Source: a virus. From it: DNA of 47,801 nucleotides. The position numbers and the translations under genes are program-made. The stretch spans positions 1 through 47,801 of the IMG/VR virus record IMGVR_UViG_3300027985_000083; one strand, given 5' to 3'. Shown here piece after piece: positions 1,036 through 43,632 of this stretch; the first letter of the stretch is position 1; the number at the start of each line of letters is the position of its first letter. Below the pieces are notes generated by a model. The model was not told the DNA's origin. It worked only from the letters and a program-made list of their open reading frames with translations, and ran no database searches.

Positions 1036-2878
1036 TTAGTAGTTAGAGGCAGAGGTGATGAGAACACCGAGGGTGTCTACACGCTGCGGACCCATGCCCC
1101 AACGGCAACGAGTTACAAACTCATCACGGGCACGGTCTTTATTTCTTTCCATTCGTATATAATATACGTCAGACTATAGCTTCCTCCGCAGAGGTTTTCT
1201 CACTTAGTCGTTGCAGTCTCTGTAATGAAATGCTAGAAGTTGTTCAATCTTCCATTTCTTGAAGCGCGAATGCTTATGAACTTTTGGTAAGAAGTGCAGG
1301 GCTCTACTTCTGTTCATCTTACCCATAGTGATTTGCCACACCATTGTGTTTTCTTTTCTACACTCGTAGATGGCACCACCAAATGCTTTTTGCAGGAGTT
1401 CTATACCTACCACATCGCCATGATGGGCTTTAACTTGCACAAGCACAGTGCCAGACTTAGGAAGTTGGTACGAGCCGTCACCGTCTAGGTACCCGGCTAC
1501 CCAAGCCCAAGTTGGGTGGTTCTTGTGCTTTATAGGGCCTGTGTGCAATCTGCTTTCTGTACTGTACTCTTTAATTACAGATATAGTGCCGTCATCAACT
1601 GCGGCACCTTTAAAAGAGCAGTATAGCTTGTATAGCCTACCCCAGTGAGCACCTTTTATAACCATGTGCTTTGTTACGTGTGGCAGGAACAGGTTCAAGT
1701 CCTTTCTTGACTGCACACGAAACACATATGCGTCTTGGTGATTTTTATTTTCGTAGGTTTTTATATCACAAGAGCCAAAAAACTTTGTTAAGCTTTGCAG
1801 GTAACCATTTCTGTCGTAACCCACTGCCGCGCTAATCTCAAGCAGTAATGCTACGTACTGGCTACCGTACCTATTCTTAACAATCTTTATACTCAAACTG
1901 CCGTCGGCATCCAACAAACCAGCCAAGTATTTCCATTCGCTTTCATTCAACATTTCACTTACCCCACACTATGCGGATGTATCAGATTACTTCGTGTTAG
2001 GCTGCCAGCGGCAGGTCTTCCACGTTGTTCAGAGAAAAACGGGCAAAAGCTTTACCCTCAACCTTCGGCATACGACGCCATGCAGCCATAATGGGCTTAG
2101 TGTTGTCGTCCAGCACACACATGAAGATGTTAGCTACACCACCAGTTACGGAAGTGGTGCCATCAGAGAAGGTGCCAGTGGGCAGGCGGTTGGAGGTGAT
2201 GATGTCCCAACCAAAGAGCTGCATCACGAAGCGCTGACCACGGGCCATACCTTCCTTCAAAATCATCTCACCAAACGGAGAGACGTCGTGAGTGATGGTT
2301 ACGAGACCGTTCAGGGTTGCTTCTACAACAGGGTCACAGATGAACACACGACCGGAGTCAGGTACGTTGGCCTTATCAAACGCCAGACGCATTGCAATCA
2401 GATGCTTCAGAGCAAAGACGTTGTTAGTCTCGGCAGAAGCAATGCGGTGTGCGAAGCCGTTAATGGTGTTCGGGTTGGCGTTAGTTTGAGCGGCGTTGCA
2501 CACGCTCAGGAAGCGAGACTCGAAGGTCTCTTGCAGGGCACGGGTAGACTCCACGGAGCGTGCAGACATGAGCTGCTCAATCTGAGACCCGTCTTCACGC
2601 AGGTCGTCGGTTACGTACCAGGCATCACCTACATAGTTGGTAATCTGGAGGCTAACTTCACCCGACTCAATCGGGTTGTACACCAGAGGGGTGTCTTCGG
2701 CAGCTTCCTGAATAGTTACAGAGCCGACAGTTTTAATGTGGAGGGTGGTGCCACTACCAAAGTCAGAGACGTTGCGGTAGAAGGTTTGTGGCAGGAGACC
2801 GTCGTGCAGGTTGTTCAGAATGAACGAGCTGTACTGCTCCGCTTCAATAAACGCTTGGCTATTGCTTGTTACTTGCAT
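1036..2878 (-). CDS. Major capsid protein, split by a group I intron (exon 1: 2878-2054; exon 2: 1149-1036)
   Basis: Exon 1 encodes 275 residues (MQVTSNSQAF to RRMPKVEG) after a GAGG ribosome binding site. Exon 2 encodes 37 residues (ERNKDRARDE to ITSASNY). Joined in frame they give a 312-aa protein of normal capsid size for podoviruses. Without splicing, exon 1 would read into the intron and stop 19 residues later (after LPLAA), losing the C-terminal strand that begins RDEFVTRCRWGMG. Position after the scaffold gene and before a small head gene supports the assignment. The fold (HK97 type) is inferred from family knowledge. Splice sites are predicted from intron pairings and not measured. 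Confidence 0.85.
1150..2053 (-). ncRNA. Group I self-splicing intron within the capsid gene
   Basis: The 904-nt insertion has the marks of a group I ribozyme. P1 pairs the exon end GGGU with GCCC (U-G wobble at the splice site). P10 pairs the second-exon start GAAAG with CUUUU just before that GCCC. A CTGCC-GCT-GGCAG hairpin fits P2. An R-like element CTGCAACGACTAAG supplies the P7 strand GACTA (1209-1205), pairing with TAGTC (1176-1172) in an S-like element AAGCTATAGTC. P8 is CCTC-TGCG-GAGG (1194-1183) and P9 is CGTATA-TTA-TATACG (1168-1154). The intron ends in the expected G at 1150. P3 to P6 are less clear by eye. Confidence 0.88.
1204..1953 (-). CDS. LAGLIDADG homing endonuclease encoded in the capsid intron
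   Basis: This 249-aa protein has two LAGLIDADG motifs, LAGLLDADGS near residues 10-19 and VAGYLDGDGS near residue 152. It is therefore a two-motif monomer of typical length; the acidic residue of each motif should bind the catalytic metal. Such enzymes cut intronless alleles and drive intron spread. Its last codons (TGC AAC GAC TAA) lie inside the R/P7 element of the ribozyme, so protein end and RNA core share bases. GGGGT upstream of the ATG is a modest ribosome binding site. LAGLIDADG enzymes are uncommon in phage introns, where GIY-YIG and HNH types dominate. Confidence 0.93.
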   Translation of the reverse strand: MLNESEWKYLAGLLDADGSLSIKIVKNRYGSQYVALLLEISAAVGYDRNGYLQSLTKFFGSCDIKTYENKNHQDAYVFRVQSRKDLNLFLPHVTKHMVIKGAHWGRLYKLYCSFKGAAVDDGTISVIKEYSTESRLHTGPIKHKNHPTWAWVAGYLDGDGSYQLPKSGTVLVQVKAHHGDVVGIELLQKAFGGAIYECRKENTMVWQITMGKMNRSRALHFLPKVHKHSRFKKWKIEQLLAFHYRDCND

Positions 2879-2886
2879 TTAATACC

Positions 2887-3621
2887 TCAAGGAGTAATGC
2901 CATACTTGCTGTAAATCTCTGCTTTAATCTTCCTCATATACTCAATTTGTTCTTGGGAAGAGGCACCAGACAGCAAGCTTTTAGATGGACGCCCAACAGG
3001 CTCTTGAGGAGCTTGCTGGAACTTTGACGTGTTGACTGAAGAAGTTGTTACGCTAGTGGTTGATTGTTGTGGTGCTTGAGCAAACCACGACAGAACGGCT
3101 TTCGGCTTAGTAGCAGCCATGCTGCCAAGTTCCTCAACGCTCATACCGAGTTCAGACGCCTTAGCTGCAACCAGCTCTTTTGTCTTCTCCCCATAAAGCT
3201 TAACAAGCTCTTGTTGAACAAACTCTACGTTTGTCTGTTGTACTTTCTGCTGCTCGAAGGCAGACAGTTTACTAGAGATTAACGCTTCAATTCCCTGTTC
3301 ATCAATCACGCCAGAAGTGGTGGCTTGAGGCTGTTGTTGCTGAGCAGTGGTGAGTTTAGATACTACCTCTTCAACGGACTGTCGTTTGGCTAGTTCTTCA
3401 CGCAACTGTGCGATCTCTTGCTCTTTGGCCGTCAGCTCAGTCTTGAGCTGGGGAATGTATTGCTGTGCGTTAGCTAGCCCTTTAAAGGCTTCTTCCAGTG
3501 AGGAGTATTTAGGCTCTCCGCGTTCATTTAGAACCATTTTAAGCAGGTCTGCTTGAGGGTTCACATCTACAGGTGGCTGATTGGTAGGTTGCTCTGTAGA
3601 AGTAAATACATTATCGGTCAT
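2887..3621 (-). CDS. Capsid scaffolding protein
   Basis: The 244-aa protein is acidic and highly charged. It has a Pro/Gln-rich N-terminus, a long heptad-like helix near residues 55-95 (rich in Lys, Glu, Gln and Leu), Gln/Thr/Ser-rich linkers and a basic C-terminal tail (YMRKIKAEIYSKYG). This is the usual build of podovirus scaffolds, whose C-terminus contacts the capsid protein. It sits directly upstream of the capsid gene, separated by 8 nt. AAGGATAAG is a strong ribosome binding site, and a 151-nt AT-rich spacer in front may hold a promoter. Confidence 0.85.
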   Translation of the reverse strand: MTDNVFTSTEQPTNQPPVDVNPQADLLKMVLNERGEPKYSSLEEAFKGLANAQQYIPQLKTELTAKEQEIAQLREELAKRQSVEEVVSKLTTAQQQQPQATTSGVIDEQGIEALISSKLSAFEQQKVQQTNVEFVQQELVKLYGEKTKELVAAKASELGMSVEELGSMAATKPKAVLSWFAQAPQQSTTSVTTSSVNTSKFQQAPQEPVGRPSKSLLSGASSQEQIEYMRKIKAEIYSKYGITP

Positions 3622-3772
3622 ACTTATCCTTATGTATTATACATATACTATAATATATATATGTATACTTATTATATACATTCTATTATACTATTTGAAT
3701 CTTCGATTCTATACTATTATATACTATACAATAGTATATACCCCGATTTTTTAAGAATCTGGACAGATTTCT
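3622..3772 (-). promoter_or_regulatory. AT-rich spacer before scaffold, candidate late promoter region
   Basis: This 151-nt gap in an otherwise tightly packed block is almost all A and T. On the minus strand it carries repeated ATAGTATA units, several TATAAT-like hexamers and a GAATC-GAA-GATTC hairpin. It also has the decamer GAATGTATAT, close to the tAATGTAtAA element I recall for late promoters of phiEco32, which also encodes a sigma factor. It may raise scaffold and capsid expression. No start site can be fixed from sequence alone. Confidence 0.4.
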
Positions 3773-4033
3773 TTAATCTTTTTTACTGGCGTCTTCTAGC
3801 AAGCTCTTTACTTCTTCCAGCGCACGCTGGTATCCTGTGGCGTCTGCTTGCTTTAACGCCCAATTAGGGGAGTCGTAAGACTCAGAACTACGTGACGCCC
3901 TAACAGAACTGTTTATCTTGGCGTCCAGCATTTCTGCCAGACGCTCCCTAACCATCTTAGACGCCAAGAAGTTTGAGCGTAGCTCCTTCTTAATGCTGGC
4001 GTCCTTAATTCCGCTTAACCAAGATGTCTTCAC
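3773..4033 (-). CDS. Small head-associated protein between portal and scaffold
   Basis: Encodes 86 aa from a GTG start that overlaps the portal stop (GTGA), with AGGACATCACTTC as ribosome binding region. It is mostly helical and charged with no cysteine, and ends in a Lys/Glu-rich helix (LEEVKSLLEDASKKD). I do not recognise a family. Position between portal and scaffold, and translational coupling to portal, suggest a head assembly or minor virion role. Confidence 0.65.
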   Translation of the reverse strand: MKTSWLSGIKDASIKKELRSNFLASKMVRERLAEMLDAKINSSVRASRSSESYDSPNWALKQADATGYQRALEEVKSLLEDASKKD

Positions 4034-18283: not shown

Positions 18284-18549
18284 TGAAAGTAAGCTGGGAC
18301 AAAATAAGGATTGGTGATGTTGTTGAATGTGAACATCTAAAAGGTAATGCCACAGCCTACCATGCAGATCACAGAGGGGTGTTTGTCTGCTCAAAGGCAG
18401 CAGCAGAAGCCAGGATTGGTCATTGTGGGACAGCTTGCGGGCACGAATCCCAAATAAAAGGGCCGAGAGGTTATTGGAACTTTTGGGAAGATGCGTGGCC
18501 GGAGCTTACTATTGTAAAACAAGCTAAAAGATTCAAAGGAAACAGCTAA
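18283..18549 (+). CDS. Mini-protein with KGNS tail (88 aa)
   Basis: TGATG overlap with the preceding gene and GGAGG upstream fix the start. The sequence opens MKVSWDKIRIGDVVECEHL, an SH3-like start, and ends RFKGNS just before the next ATG (CTAATG). The tail again encodes AAAGGAAAC as ribosome binding site for the amidotransferase gene. Two Cys near residue 50 (GHCGTACGHE) are specific to this copy. Function unknown. Confidence 0.65.
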   Translation: MKVSWDKIRIGDVVECEHLKGNATAYHADHRGVFVCSKAAAEARIGHCGTACGHESQIKGPRGYWNFWEDAWPELTIVKQAKRFKGNS

Positions 18550-19667
18550 TGTGTGGAATTGTAGCCGTAATCGGTGGGATGTTCAAAAAGGAAGTGGCAA
18601 CCTTCCATGACCTACTGGTTGTGGACAGTCTGCGTGGGCCACATAGTACAGGGGTGTATGTAGTTCGTGGTGATGAAGACCACTTAGTTAAGAAGGCCAT
18701 GCTCCCTCACGAACTTATGCACTTTCCGCAATTCAAGCGGGCATTTGATAAGCTGCCAGATGTGTGTATTGGCCACAATAGGTGGGCCACTGTTGGGGAC
18801 GTAACCGCCAGCAATGCCCACCCATTTGAGGCTGACAACATTGTTGGTGTACACAATGGGACACTGATAAACTGGAAGAAGTTCAAAGACTCTGGCAAGT
18901 TTATAGTGGACAGCGAATGCCTTATTCACAACATCGACCAAGATGGCATTGACGCTGTGTGGGGCAAGCTCGAAGGTGCTGCCACTGTCATGTGGTGGGA
19001 CAAGAAAGCAAAGCTGCTCAACGTTATACGTAACAAAGAGCGGCCCATGTTCTGCGCAAGACAGAAGGGAACAAACGTTGTTCTGTTTGCGTCTGAGCAC
19101 TGGATGCTGCTATCTTGCGCAGGGCGTAATGGGGTTACACTGGAAGACCTGACAGAGCTTCCTGTAGACACCCTGCTCACTGTGGACGTTATGGGCAATA
19201 TCCAGCAACGGTCGGTTAAGCCATACGTAAAGCCTGTTGTAAGCTATTCTGTTACAGCAAGGCCATCTGGACAAGGGCCTTACAAAGAAGGAGAGCGTAT
19301 TGAGTTTGAGGTTGTAGCTGTCCACCACAGTGCAAATAGAGACGCCTCTCTGCGTGTAGAATGCAAGACCCCGACAGGCAATCCTGTTAATGTGTGGCTT
19401 AACCCACGCTCTGCCAGGGAGTTTGACCTCATTCAATTGATGGGGGATAGCCCATTCACATTCACTGGTGTTGTTAGCTTTAGTAACTCCTATGTTACGT
19501 CTGTGAAGGCCGATTCAGTTGTTGAGCTGATACAGCTTGATGACGGCACAGACGAAGAGGAGATGTGTGAATGTTGTGGTTTGTTTGAGAGTGTTGACGA
19601 TATTTCAGACAAGACAGTACACGGCATTAACGTGCGTGTTTGTAAAAAGTGCTATCAAATGGAGTAG
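18549..19667 (+). CDS. Class II glutamine amidotransferase (Ntn hydrolase)
   Basis: This 372-aa protein begins MCGIVAVIGG, so Cys2 becomes the N-terminal nucleophile after Met removal. Family motifs are in order: LRGPHSTGVYV, GHNRWATVGD, NAHPF and GVHNGTLINW, as in GlmS and asparagine synthase glutaminase domains (about residues 1-210). No sugar isomerase or synthetase domain follows. The tail ends with a CECC...CKKC zinc-ribbon-like module (about residues 340-370). It probably supplies ammonia or transfers an amide group for the COOH-NH2 ligases nearby. Confidence 0.9.
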   Translation: MCGIVAVIGGMFKKEVATFHDLLVVDSLRGPHSTGVYVVRGDEDHLVKKAMLPHELMHFPQFKRAFDKLPDVCIGHNRWATVGDVTASNAHPFEADNIVGVHNGTLINWKKFKDSGKFIVDSECLIHNIDQDGIDAVWGKLEGAATVMWWDKKAKLLNVIRNKERPMFCARQKGTNVVLFASEHWMLLSCAGRNGVTLEDLTELPVDTLLTVDVMGNIQQRSVKPYVKPVVSYSVTARPSGQGPYKEGERIEFEVVAVHHSANRDASLRVECKTPTGNPVNVWLNPRSAREFDLIQLMGDSPFTFTGVVSFSNSYVTSVKADSVVELIQLDDGTDEEEMCECCGLFESVDDISDKTVHGINVRVCKKCYQME

Positions 19668-38478: not shown

Positions 38479-41400
38479 TTATTCTCCACCACTACTGGTA
38501 AGTTGTTCCACCATGTCCAAGAATGCCTTCCGCTGCTTCTCATCTGGGATGCGCACAGCAAGCTCCATGAGCTGCTCTTTCTCCATCCAGCCTGACGCCT
38601 TCATCATAGAGACAAGATAACTGCTCTCGCCATTCATACGCATGTCATACTTAAGCTGATTCATCAACTCATCCATAGCTGCTGGGTTGTCCTTAAACCC
38701 TTTCACCATAGCGCCCATAAGACGTTGAGCGTACTCTGGGCTGTCAGCCAACACACCATTCATGGCCAACTGTTGTCTTGCGTTCTTGATGAATGTAGCA
38801 ACATCATCCTTAAACTGCTTGTTGATTTCAATTGCCTTGCCAGTGAACTCGTAGGTCTGCAACACTTCCTTAGGAGTTATGGCAAAGTACTTCTGTGCGT
38901 ATGCGTGCAATGGGCTAATCTCATCAGCCAACTGACGCCCATATTTGTCACGGAACACGCCATTCTCCATAAGCATGGAGCCCTTGAACATGTTACTAGT
39001 GCCCGCTGCGAGAGCCCCCAGACTCGCCCACAATGCCTCCTCGTTAGGCTCTATACCTGTATCAGCAGTGGACAGGCCAACGTAACGAGAGGTCGTTACA
39101 GCGGCTGTCAGGCCACGGTCAATCAACGATGCTGCTGGGTTACGAGTGAACATCTCTGGATAGGTGTACAACGTAGCAAGTCGGTCGGCCATACCAACCA
39201 CATCAAGGGGGTTGTACTTACCGAAGTCTAGTGTACCGAGTTCTGGATTAACAGAGCCCAACATCTTAGCCATCAGGCTCCACTCCATTGCACGCTGTAC
39301 CTTATCCTTCTCCTCACGAGAGAATGGCAAGCTTTCAACTGTTGAGTTCATGTGGTTGCGTACACCAAGCGGCAGGCCAAATACCATCAGAGGCGCTACA
39401 GTGAGACGAGCCCTGTCCTTGATAGACAACCCACGATTGAACAACGGGTCAAACAACGCCTTGTGCATCACTTGGAAGAACTGCAAGCTTACGTTAAGAG
39501 TGTTCTCATTGTAAGGCATCTGACCAGCACGGTTCATCGAGTATGTCAAGTTACGTGCCTCAGCATGTACTTGATCAAGCTCACGGGCTGTCTTAGGGGC
39601 ATACCCATTAGCTGCTTCAAAATCCAAACGCTTAGCAAGCCAAGCAGTGTATTGGTTTAAAAGCTCGCCCTTGTTGTAGAAGCCTTGTATAAACTTCATT
39701 ACACCATACGCCGTCTTGGCTGGACGTGACGCCTTAAGACCACCAAGCTCTCGGCTTGAACCAGCCCCGCCCATGAATGCTGCACCATGAATATCTACAG
39801 CAGCACTATGCCCAGTACGTTCCCACTCCTTCCACAACTGCTTACCTCTCTTCTGCGACTCACCAGAGGCAATGCCAAGTGAAGTGCCCAACATGTCAGA
39901 CAAATCACGGTAAAGCTTGGGGTTCAGGAAAGAATCAGACAGGTTGGCGAAGGACTGCATGGACTGCATTAAGAATGTGCCCATATGCGCAGATACCAGA
40001 GAAGAGTAGTACACAGCAGCCTTCAGTGTTGAGGTTGGCTTACCACTGCCAGCGTAGCTACGTAACGCACCTTCAACCTTGCCATTGAATGGGGACACTG
40101 GGATGCGTGCTACGCCATCAGCTATGATACCAATAATTGATCTGGTACCAACGTCTATGGCACTCTCATACCCGCTCTCAAGCTGGTTGATGTACTCCCA
40201 CATAGTGCGGGCATCTGTCAGTCGCTTGCTTCCAGTCAGGTTACGACCAATGTCAGCAGGGTCTACAGGGAAACCCTTCATGTGCGTGACAGGATCAACC
40301 TCAAGCAAGTCTGCGTACTGGTCCATGTAGCGAGCCTTAAGCGTCTCAATTACAGGGCGTGTAGCGATACGATTACCAAGACTGAACGCTGTCTGTTGCA
40401 TTGCTTCAAGTGGGTTCTGTACATACTGACTTTGACCAGAGGCCAGTGGGTCATAGCTCTCCAAAGGTGCCCCACGGAAACGTTGACTTGAACGGCCAGA
40501 GGAGATGCCAACATCGAAACGGGCTTCGCTCAGTCCAAGGGCATCTTTGGTCTTGATGTCTTCACGGATGAAGAAGTCAGCACTATCGTGACCGCTACGC
40601 TCGTACATATGGCCTTGAGTACGTGCAGCAATAGCCTTAGCCATTTGCTCTGCTTCCTCTATACTACCAGCCTCTGCAACAGCCTTCTTGTACAGGATAC
40701 GTCCACTCTTATCTTTGATGTTCTGGACAACAAACAGTGGCGCATCGTGACGTACAGAATAGTAACCATCGATGTAGTTTAGTACGCGGTCATTCTCGTT
40801 GAAGTCTCGTGCGTAGCTTCCAACGTTATTCTTGACAACAACGTACTTAGCCGATTCTCCAGAGGCATCCGTTACGTGGTCACGCAGTTGTGCAACATAG
40901 CCACCTCCGTCATACACAGACTTCTTACCAGCTTGTGACAACTCAACAATAAGGCCAGTGTCAGGGTCGTACACCTTGCCAACAATAGGTGCATTACGAC
41001 CCTGAGGCTTGACAAACAGCTCTGTGCCAGATTGCTTGTGCGAGAAGAGCTTGTAGCCAGTGAGCTGCATAGTCCTAACCTTATCTGCGTTCTCAAGGAC
41101 ATACGCTGTGTCCCAATAACGCTTCCAGTTGGACATTACATACACCTGGTCATGAGTGAATCCAGCAGCAATCATTTCAGGGGCGTTAAACGGAATACGT
41201 TCAACGTTAGCTTTGTAGATGTACTCTGCAAGCTCCTTCTGCTCTTTCTTGCTCAACTGCCCATATGGTTTGTTAAACTCGTCTGCTAAATTAGCAAGCC
41301 GCTTAGTAATGCCAGCGGCCTTGTCGAAAGCAGGGATTACGCCAAGAGATAGGTCTTTGTGGAACATCTGCTGTGGACTGAATACATGGCGGGTCAAAGA

Positions 41401-43632
41401 CCCTTGACGCATGCTAACCATGCCATTGAACAGCCCCTTGCCCCAGTCAAGCCAGTTACGCTTGATGTCAAATTTCTCAAAGCCAGTTTCTAGGTGGAAG
41501 TTCCAGTTGTGATCTACCTGTACAGCGTAGTCACCTTTGGGCAGGGAGGCAATGTCAACACCCTTCTCTACAGGCTCGTAGCCCTTCTCTGTGCGCTTCA
41601 TCACCGTAAGGCTATCCAACCCCACACCCTCGTTCTGCAAAGCGAACATGGTGCGTTCTACGGCTTCCTGAGCGTCATTGAACCCAACGTTACCGTCAGT
41701 GAACATACCTTTAATACGGAAGCCGTTATCGCTGTCCTCAATGAGCTGTGACATCGGAGTACGGAGAGATACACCACGAGCACCAAGCACAGACCATTTC
41801 AGATTGTCACGCAGGCTCTTTAGCTCTTTATCTGTGTAGCGCACACCGCTGTCAGCTACGGCTAAGTCAAGTGTACTGACATCAACATCAAGCACAGGTT
41901 TGACACGTACAGCCTTGCCTACAGCTGGTATTGGTGTTACCAAGTCGTTGGCCAATTCTTCCCGAGATGTTCCAGACACTACTTTGGCGAATGCCCCAGT
42001 TTCGTCGTCGATTGCAGCCTTGACAAATGCAGAAGCTTTAGTTGGGTTGGTTTCAGACAAGGTAGACACTACAGAGGAAGGCTTCATTGCGCCTATCACA
42101 TTGTGGGCAGCCGCCTCATCTAGGGCCTGACGTACCGCAGAGCTAACACCAGACTTAGTAGCAGACACCGGCTTGGCAGCCTTAACTGCTTGGTCAAATT
42201 TAGACAGCTCTGCCTCTGCAAGATAGCCACGTTCGCTGTAATCCAGCTTAGACTTTACGCCAGAGATGCGGGCTTTGTACTCGTCAATTTGCTCATCAAC
42301 AACCCTGTTTGCTTTGCGCAAAGCTTCCTTGCGGGACACCTTCATGTCTTTGGCGAGTTGTGAGGCATTTTGCTTGTTGGCCAGCTTCTCAGCCTCAAGC
42401 TGCGCTAACTTATTCCCTAGGTCGGCTTGCTCTGAACGAAGTTGCTTCACAGTGCCACGGTCAAACTTGTTCTCTGCCAAAGCAGATAACTCTGTTCTCT
42501 TCTGTGCTATCTCAGCTTCTGACATAGTTGTGCCAGCAACATCAAACAGTTTTTCTTGTTTAACTGACTTCTCTGCAACAATAGGTTCAGCTGGCGCTAC
42601 GGGCTTAGCAGCAGTCGCTGCCTGCTCTGCTTCAACTACAGACTCCTTGAAGACAACTTTCGGTGCAACCTTCTCAACACCTGCAACAGTTGGTTTAAGC
42701 CAGCCAGGACTAACTCCAATAATAGACATTGCGTTGAAGATAGTGTCAGTAAGTGCAGATCCTACCTTGCCCATGTCAGAGAATGGTACTTCTGGGTCTG
42801 CTATGAGCATACGAGCACGTTCTACAACAGCCACCTCGTTGTTATCAAACATGCCTGGGCCATACTGGGCCTGTATGACATTAACAACCTTCTTGAGCAA
42901 TTCCATACGCTCTTGTGGCGGTTTCTTCTCAATCATCTCACGCATTTCACGTTCGTTAGAGAATGAGGTGAAGATATTGAGCAAAGTGTCTTGTGGCTTC
43001 TCGTCTTTGCCGCCCAACTGACTGCCAACAATCTCTCTGATTGCTGCCACGTTCATTGCACGCGCACCGGGGAAAATCTCCGCCAACATATCCTTGTAGG
43101 CGTCCCAAGTGGATTGGTCATCCTTGGCTGCTAGGGCCATTACAAACTTGTTAGCATCTTTCTTGTACTGGATGGCTGCATCAATGTCATTAAAAACCCA
43201 AGAGCGTGCTGCTTCTTGGTTAGCACCTTCACGGCCATTATCCTCAAACAATGCCTGTTCAGCCACAATCTTACGAGCGTCAGGAGTTTCTTGTTGCTGC
43301 AAGTAGGTAGGGATGGTTGCTTTAACGCCATCAGGGACAGACGGGTCAATAAGCATTTCGCCACTAATACCAAGGATTCGTTGCTGACGGGCTTGCTCAA
43401 CCTTCTGCAAGCTTTGCTTTACTGGTTGGTCATCAGCGTTAATATCTAAGCTGTCTTTGAAGAATTGGTAGTTGGAAACAACATCACCACCAACGGCCAT
43501 AGAAGCAAACGCCGCTCGGTTGGTGTTAGACAGGTCATTACCGAGAGGAAGAGTCTCTTGACCCTTCAGAGAGTCAATGGTAAGATTGCTTCCAGTGTCT
43601 TCTTTATTGAGAGAGTCAAGAGACAATTTCAT
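38479..43632 (-). CDS. Giant internal virion protein (gp16-like ejection protein, 1717 aa)
   Basis: This is the longest gene in the window. The N-terminal 500 residues are helical with a coiled-coil section rich in Ala, Lys and Glu (about residues 370-450). The middle is mixed and the C-terminal 700 residues are helical. No lytic transglycosylase motif (ES...GLMQ type) was recognised, unlike T7 gp16, so wall digestion may fall to another protein. It should be ejected with the DNA to form the channel. TAATG overlap couples it to the gp14-like gene. Confidence 0.8.
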   Translation of the reverse strand: MKLSLDSLNKEDTGSNLTIDSLKGQETLPLGNDLSNTNRAAFASMAVGGDVVSNYQFFKDSLDINADDQPVKQSLQKVEQARQQRILGISGEMLIDPSVPDGVKATIPTYLQQQETPDARKIVAEQALFEDNGREGANQEAARSWVFNDIDAAIQYKKDANKFVMALAAKDDQSTWDAYKDMLAEIFPGARAMNVAAIREIVGSQLGGKDEKPQDTLLNIFTSFSNEREMREMIEKKPPQERMELLKKVVNVIQAQYGPGMFDNNEVAVVERARMLIADPEVPFSDMGKVGSALTDTIFNAMSIIGVSPGWLKPTVAGVEKVAPKVVFKESVVEAEQAATAAKPVAPAEPIVAEKSVKQEKLFDVAGTTMSEAEIAQKRTELSALAENKFDRGTVKQLRSEQADLGNKLAQLEAEKLANKQNASQLAKDMKVSRKEALRKANRVVDEQIDEYKARISGVKSKLDYSERGYLAEAELSKFDQAVKAAKPVSATKSGVSSAVRQALDEAAAHNVIGAMKPSSVVSTLSETNPTKASAFVKAAIDDETGAFAKVVSGTSREELANDLVTPIPAVGKAVRVKPVLDVDVSTLDLAVADSGVRYTDKELKSLRDNLKWSVLGARGVSLRTPMSQLIEDSDNGFRIKGMFTDGNVGFNDAQEAVERTMFALQNEGVGLDSLTVMKRTEKGYEPVEKGVDIASLPKGDYAVQVDHNWNFHLETGFEKFDIKRNWLDWGKGLFNGMVSMRQGSLTRHVFSPQQMFHKDLSLGVIPAFDKAAGITKRLANLADEFNKPYGQLSKKEQKELAEYIYKANVERIPFNAPEMIAAGFTHDQVYVMSNWKRYWDTAYVLENADKVRTMQLTGYKLFSHKQSGTELFVKPQGRNAPIVGKVYDPDTGLIVELSQAGKKSVYDGGGYVAQLRDHVTDASGESAKYVVVKNNVGSYARDFNENDRVLNYIDGYYSVRHDAPLFVVQNIKDKSGRILYKKAVAEAGSIEEAEQMAKAIAARTQGHMYERSGHDSADFFIREDIKTKDALGLSEARFDVGISSGRSSQRFRGAPLESYDPLASGQSQYVQNPLEAMQQTAFSLGNRIATRPVIETLKARYMDQYADLLEVDPVTHMKGFPVDPADIGRNLTGSKRLTDARTMWEYINQLESGYESAIDVGTRSIIGIIADGVARIPVSPFNGKVEGALRSYAGSGKPTSTLKAAVYYSSLVSAHMGTFLMQSMQSFANLSDSFLNPKLYRDLSDMLGTSLGIASGESQKRGKQLWKEWERTGHSAAVDIHGAAFMGGAGSSRELGGLKASRPAKTAYGVMKFIQGFYNKGELLNQYTAWLAKRLDFEAANGYAPKTARELDQVHAEARNLTYSMNRAGQMPYNENTLNVSLQFFQVMHKALFDPLFNRGLSIKDRARLTVAPLMVFGLPLGVRNHMNSTVESLPFSREEKDKVQRAMEWSLMAKMLGSVNPELGTLDFGKYNPLDVVGMADRLATLYTYPEMFTRNPAASLIDRGLTAAVTTSRYVGLSTADTGIEPNEEALWASLGALAAGTSNMFKGSMLMENGVFRDKYGRQLADEISPLHAYAQKYFAITPKEVLQTYEFTGKAIEINKQFKDDVATFIKNARQQLAMNGVLADSPEYAQRLMGAMVKGFKDNPAAMDELMNQLKYDMRMNGESSYLVSMMKASGWMEKEQLMELAVRIPDEKQRKAFLDMVEQLTSSGGE

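Follow-up and report, generated by a model that had tools for sequence, protein, structure and literature searches.

The window, by which we mean the whole 47,801-nucleotide stretch analysed here (IMG/VR record IMGVR_UViG_3300027985_000083, positions 1 to 47,801), carries on its minus strand a major capsid gene that is split by an insertion. Its upstream neighbor on this strand is a scaffold-type gene (3621..2887). The features of the split gene are as follows:

2054..2878, minus strand: capsid exon 1 (codons 1-275, 825 nt), ending in ...GUUGAGGGU; phrog_267, Pfam Phage_capsid_4, alignment
1150..2053, minus strand: predicted group I intron (904 nt); junction from homology plus the U/G rule, covarying helices
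1204..1953, minus strand: LAGLIDADG homing endonuclease gene (249 aa); Pfam LAGLIDADG_1, PDB relatives, AlphaFold, Foldseek
1036..1149, minus strand: capsid exon 2 (114 nt), encoding ERNKDRARDEF...SASNY and a stop; alignment to uninterrupted capsids

Joined, the two exons encode 312 aa followed by a stop, just as the original prediction had it from the removal of 2053-1150, the coordinates of which proved exact. The joined protein aligns end to end, and gap-free at the junction, with seven uninterrupted capsid proteins of Pseudomonas, Vibrio and oyster-associated phages, in all of which EGERNKD spans the junction position. It is 73-79% identical to the capsids of named phages over 312 aa and matches phrog_267 (major head protein) and Pfam Phage_capsid_4. 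Judged by these similarities, the spliced product would be a Zobellviridae-type major capsid protein.

To locate the junction, every T|..|G splice pair (5′ site after T, 3′ site after G) was scored against capsid homologues, blind to the junction VEG/ERNK proposed earlier. The search arrived at the same pair, 2053/1150, which scored 128 versus 75 for the runner-up. A shift by one base (GAGGG joined to GGAAAG) encodes an identical protein, so that the two junctions are inseparable by homology alone, but the shifted one breaks the U/G rule.

The insertion can be folded into the following elements, all on the minus strand:

2054..2057: P1 exon strand GGGU, with U at the splice site
2045..2049: P10 guide strand CUUUU, 5 bp with exon 2 GAAAG (1149..1145)
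2041..2044: P1 guide strand GCCC, 4 bp with the exon strand
2032..2038: P3 5′ strand UUUUCUC, 7 bp with GAGAAAA
2021..2024: P4 5′ strand CGUG, 4 bp with 3′ strand CACG (1996..1993); from sequence, conserved in relatives
1999..2018: extended P5 hairpin with loop GCU; from sequence and minimum-energy fold
1986..1990: tentative P6 5′ strand GUAAU, with 3′ strand AUUAC (1226..1222); from sequence only, by eye
1205..1209: P7 5′ strand GACUA, 5 bp with UAGUC
1195..1201: P3 3′ strand GAGAAAA, paired in relatives' cores
1183..1194: P8 hairpin CCUC UGCG GAGG, 4 bp
1172..1182: J8/7 and P7 3′ strand, AAGCUAUAGUC
1154..1168: P9 hairpin CGUAUA UUA UAUACG, 6 bp
1150: terminal guanosine of the intron, from the junction search

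Hallmarks of group I introns are present, namely the exon-end U opposite a guide G in P1, the P10 pairing of the guide with exon 2 and the G that closes the intron. So is the conserved P3-P8 core with the P3/P7 pseudoknot and J8/7, in which the P7 strands were placed by their pairing, so that P7 constitutes no independent evidence. The fold reproduces the P1 (with its U-G pair at the splice site), P10, P7, P8, P9 and terminal G named in the original prediction and adds P3, P4 and P5, which were not named there.

We asked whether the fold is conserved across related introns. Relatives of the endonuclease were drawn from IMG/VR and GenBank phages, and their flanks, read for an intron core, revealed the same core as that of the window. 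When constant spacings to J3/4 and P7 were used to locate the P3 strands, pairing over 52 distinct cores reached 95%; P3 was fully paired in 42 of the 52, and 43 different helices occurred in the set. Shuffled controls averaged 47% (at most 57%) and slid registers gave about 50%, indicating that the pairing is register-specific. P8 with a 4-nt loop was 86% paired, compared with at most 67% in shuffles. In 36 introns, P1 and P10 together formed on average 7.9 bp with their own exons, but 3.4 (maximum 4.3) with swapped exons. Covariation across relatives is therefore strong for P3, P8 and P1+P10.

The Rfam search suggested by the original prediction gave no match anywhere in the window at either threshold (up to E 10), RF00028 included; the endonuclease gene within a loop probably defeats the Rfam model here. 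The intron family is tied to group I by one of its members. The capsid gene of L165 contains two introns, an ORF-less one at 3768-3972 (minus strand) and an endonuclease intron upstream, and the ORF-less sister aligns to the whole RF00028 model (25.9 bits, E 0.003, below the gathering score of 50). A group II intron, an intein or another splicing element is exceedingly improbable, as the only feature in its favor is the open frame at the 5′ end. An intein is excluded by the in-frame stop, no reverse transcriptase gene is present, and P7, J8/7 and the terminal G are of group I type, as is the topology of the covarying helices.

The endonuclease has two motifs, LAGLLDADG and VAGYLDGDG, and its stop codon overlaps P7. 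The catalytic acidic residues D17 and D159 are invariant in 36 homologues. A single-sequence structure prediction reached a pLDDT of only 38, whereas an AlphaFold model repeated with the 36 homologues had a pLDDT of 95.8 and a pTM of 0.92. The nearest solved structures are I-SmaMI and I-MsoI (Foldseek E 5e-14, probability 1.00), and each of the 50 PDB matches listed for the predicted fold is a LAGLIDADG enzyme or was engineered from one. Its phrog label, 'HNH endonuclease', does not suit the enzyme. A profile search with the enzyme found no relative in GTDB genomes. With both motifs present and a confidently predicted fold, the enzyme is intact-looking. Homology, covariation and structure prediction thus agree with the earlier reading of a group I intron, its splice junction and a homing endonuclease, and they support the insertion being a compact group I intron. 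It is very unlikely that the core has lost splicing and that the contig represents a defective phage. P1 does have only 4 bp, but the core helices, the U/G pair and P10 are all intact, as are both LAGLIDADG motifs, and the capsid exons on either side, encoding a protein the phage needs, are conserved.

Without splicing, the capsid frame runs through 18 intron codons and yields a 293-aa protein ending in ...EDLPLAA; the P5 hairpin itself encodes ...DLPLAA and UAA follows in J5/4. That the endonuclease gene simply broke the capsid gene, leaving this protein as a working capsid with a new C-terminus, would fit the open frame and its ordinary-looking codon usage. Against this, exon 2 is intact, conserved and in frame at the exact junction, the intron helices covary, and the 18 codons are ribozyme P1-P5, common to relatives whose frame mostly stops at once. 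We consider a broken gene highly improbable. A coding function of the 18-codon extension was likewise rejected, since relatives do not keep it.

More generally, of 67 introns, 50 end the capsid frame within two codons, and the rest let it run longer. Stops in frame close to the 5′ splice site have been described before and are proposed to aid ribozyme folding (PMC3984707). Among the 17 introns with at least three read-through codons, five (from four lineages) end in [LIV]AA, versus 0 of 97 in other frames, a pattern that was noticed first and counted afterwards. Besides the window, these ends are ...YDLPIAA in L210 (junction read by eye, the automatic search having given none there), ...SLALAA in L204/205 and ...IICLAA in L311. 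A replication declared in advance was too small, providing about three new informative introns, one of which ended in -LAA (L349, ...IRLAA, at a site shared with L311). Ends in -LAA resemble ssrA tags. By analogy, host ClpXP might destroy the truncated capsid protein and so remove a product that could poison assembly. We regard such a degron as unlikely, the more so since the Ala codons at the L311/L349 site are accounted for by pairing of the guide to exon Ala codons, which explains one of the lineages. The capsid intron of mycobacteriophage LittleE has a read-through end, ...ATAAA, that matches -LAA only partially and comes from a hairpin-like source with a GUAA loop.

Next, we surveyed the host genes at 80 IMG/VR loci, the window and Pseudomonas phage HHBS10_2. 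Capsid proteins were matched at all loci except four. In L188 exon 1 reads as capsid, the cut-off L245 and L254 have exon 1 flanks in common with capsid loci, and L261 (Pseudoalteromonas phage J2-1) adjoins a terminase gene. Representative exon 2 proteins match one of two major head protein families, phrog_267 or phrog_3437. More distant endonuclease relatives also reside mostly in capsid genes, the exceptions being L277 and L298 (terminase-like, by eye) and L343-L346 (other genes). Next to the J2-1 terminase gene (L266; NC_047839.1, 114432-120295) there is an unannotated related endonuclease with an intron core.

In Zobellviridae-type capsid genes, junctions follow reference nucleotides 39, 46, 105, 143, 252, 259, 266 and 825, with L253 unsure. 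The phrog_3437 group has junctions IQ|Y, NQAV|F and EWH|D, and the FIPEIW group has three insertion sites. Overall, nearly all relatives of the endonuclease occupy genes for major head proteins, in several families and at about a dozen sites or more. Neighboring Zobellviridae sites are separated by 7-nt gaps in three cases; an exact 7-nt spacing (39/46, 252/259/266) was dropped as a rule because a site at about 248 (L105, L132; by eye) breaks it. N-terminal sites in L010, L182-L185 and L201-L240 belong to two capsid families of different sequence and have local CAGT|AT in common, possibly a bridge for jumps between capsid families.

The enzyme tree tracks capsid families and requires 17 site changes for 16 site groups (minimum 15). 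The window intron, at codon 275, falls inside the codon 13-16 clade with 90-93% bootstrap, the fork joining it to these introns not being starred. Read straightforwardly, the tree suggests that the lineage has long been associated with one gene and has been retargeted repeatedly within it. That the lineage is a capsid-gene specialist is well supported: even where the capsid families differ in sequence, it stays with a single protein function, and it shifts its site within the gene.

Taken together, the locus very probably represents a capsid-gene group I intron with a LAGLIDADG homing endonuclease, from a site-switching capsid lineage. Computation shows the insertion with its exact junction, the covarying core, the predicted enzyme fold with both motifs, the family distribution and the site changes; splicing in vivo, cleavage and homing are inferred. 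The ribozyme core would fold around the endonuclease gene, which would occupy the P6 region. The intron would then excise itself from late mRNA, joining VEG to ERNK to give the 312-aa capsid. When relatives co-infect, the enzyme presumably cleaves their intronless capsid alleles near GAGGGT^GAAAGAAAT; repair of the cut allele would then copy the intron in. The lineage has switched sites within the capsid gene several times, its guide sequences matching the new exons in each case. From the gene it follows that virion production would be tied to splicing. The window provides an intron of exactly known position in a gene needed by every virion, a dependence that would require efficient splicing, while the lineage offers a natural series on how homing elements are retargeted and guide sequences follow.

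Capsid-gene introns are already known. The LittleE intron (JF937101; about 820 bp), whose splicing was demonstrated by RT-PCR and N-terminal sequencing (PMC3706429), is likewise of group I type and lies in the major capsid gene, preceded by U and ending in G. Its enzyme was likened to LAGLIDADG endonucleases (PMC3706429), but is encoded on the opposite strand, the capsid and site differ, and it was not among the relatives of the window enzyme in our GenBank phage search. In lactococcal phage Tuc2009 (NC_002703), a group I intron also splits the major head protein gene (orf37/orf39, annotated as joined after excision), but the enzyme is annotated as an HNH endonuclease and, again, site and capsid are different. 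I-SmaMI, I-MsoI and I-OnuI have the fold and double motif of the window enzyme, but only about 20% identity and different targets. Two unannotated introns, in HHBS10_2 and IMGVR_UViG_2775506780 (L010), have the same core and capsid gene as the window and enzymes 53% and 48% identical to its enzyme, but they sit at codons 13 and 16, not at 275, and have different guide sequences. What is new is a lineage almost restricted to capsid genes, at many sites, and the grouping of the codon 275 intron with those at codons 13-16. In the literature searched, which included few subscription papers, we found no description of a capsid-dedicated intron lineage, and a lineage so nearly confined to a single gene function seems to be undescribed.

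Capsid introns also lead to misannotation of capsid genes in isolates such as HHBS10_2. In HHBS10_2 (L002 1-2905, corresponding to PQ287653.1 3820-6724), the intron follows codon 13; the annotation of PQ287653.1 has no capsid gene at this locus, and a minus-strand hypothetical protein covers exon 2. Another viral contig with capsid-gene intron cores, L125, also carries an Rfam suhB/mmgR small RNA at 2289-2362 (plus strand; 59.3 bits, above the gathering score). Elsewhere in the window, 18549-19667 (plus strand) encodes a protein resembling glutamine-fructose-6-phosphate aminotransferase / glutamine amidotransferase (phrog_4736), and 38479-43632 (minus strand) encodes a protein of 1717 aa that partly resembles internal virion proteins (phrog_12003).
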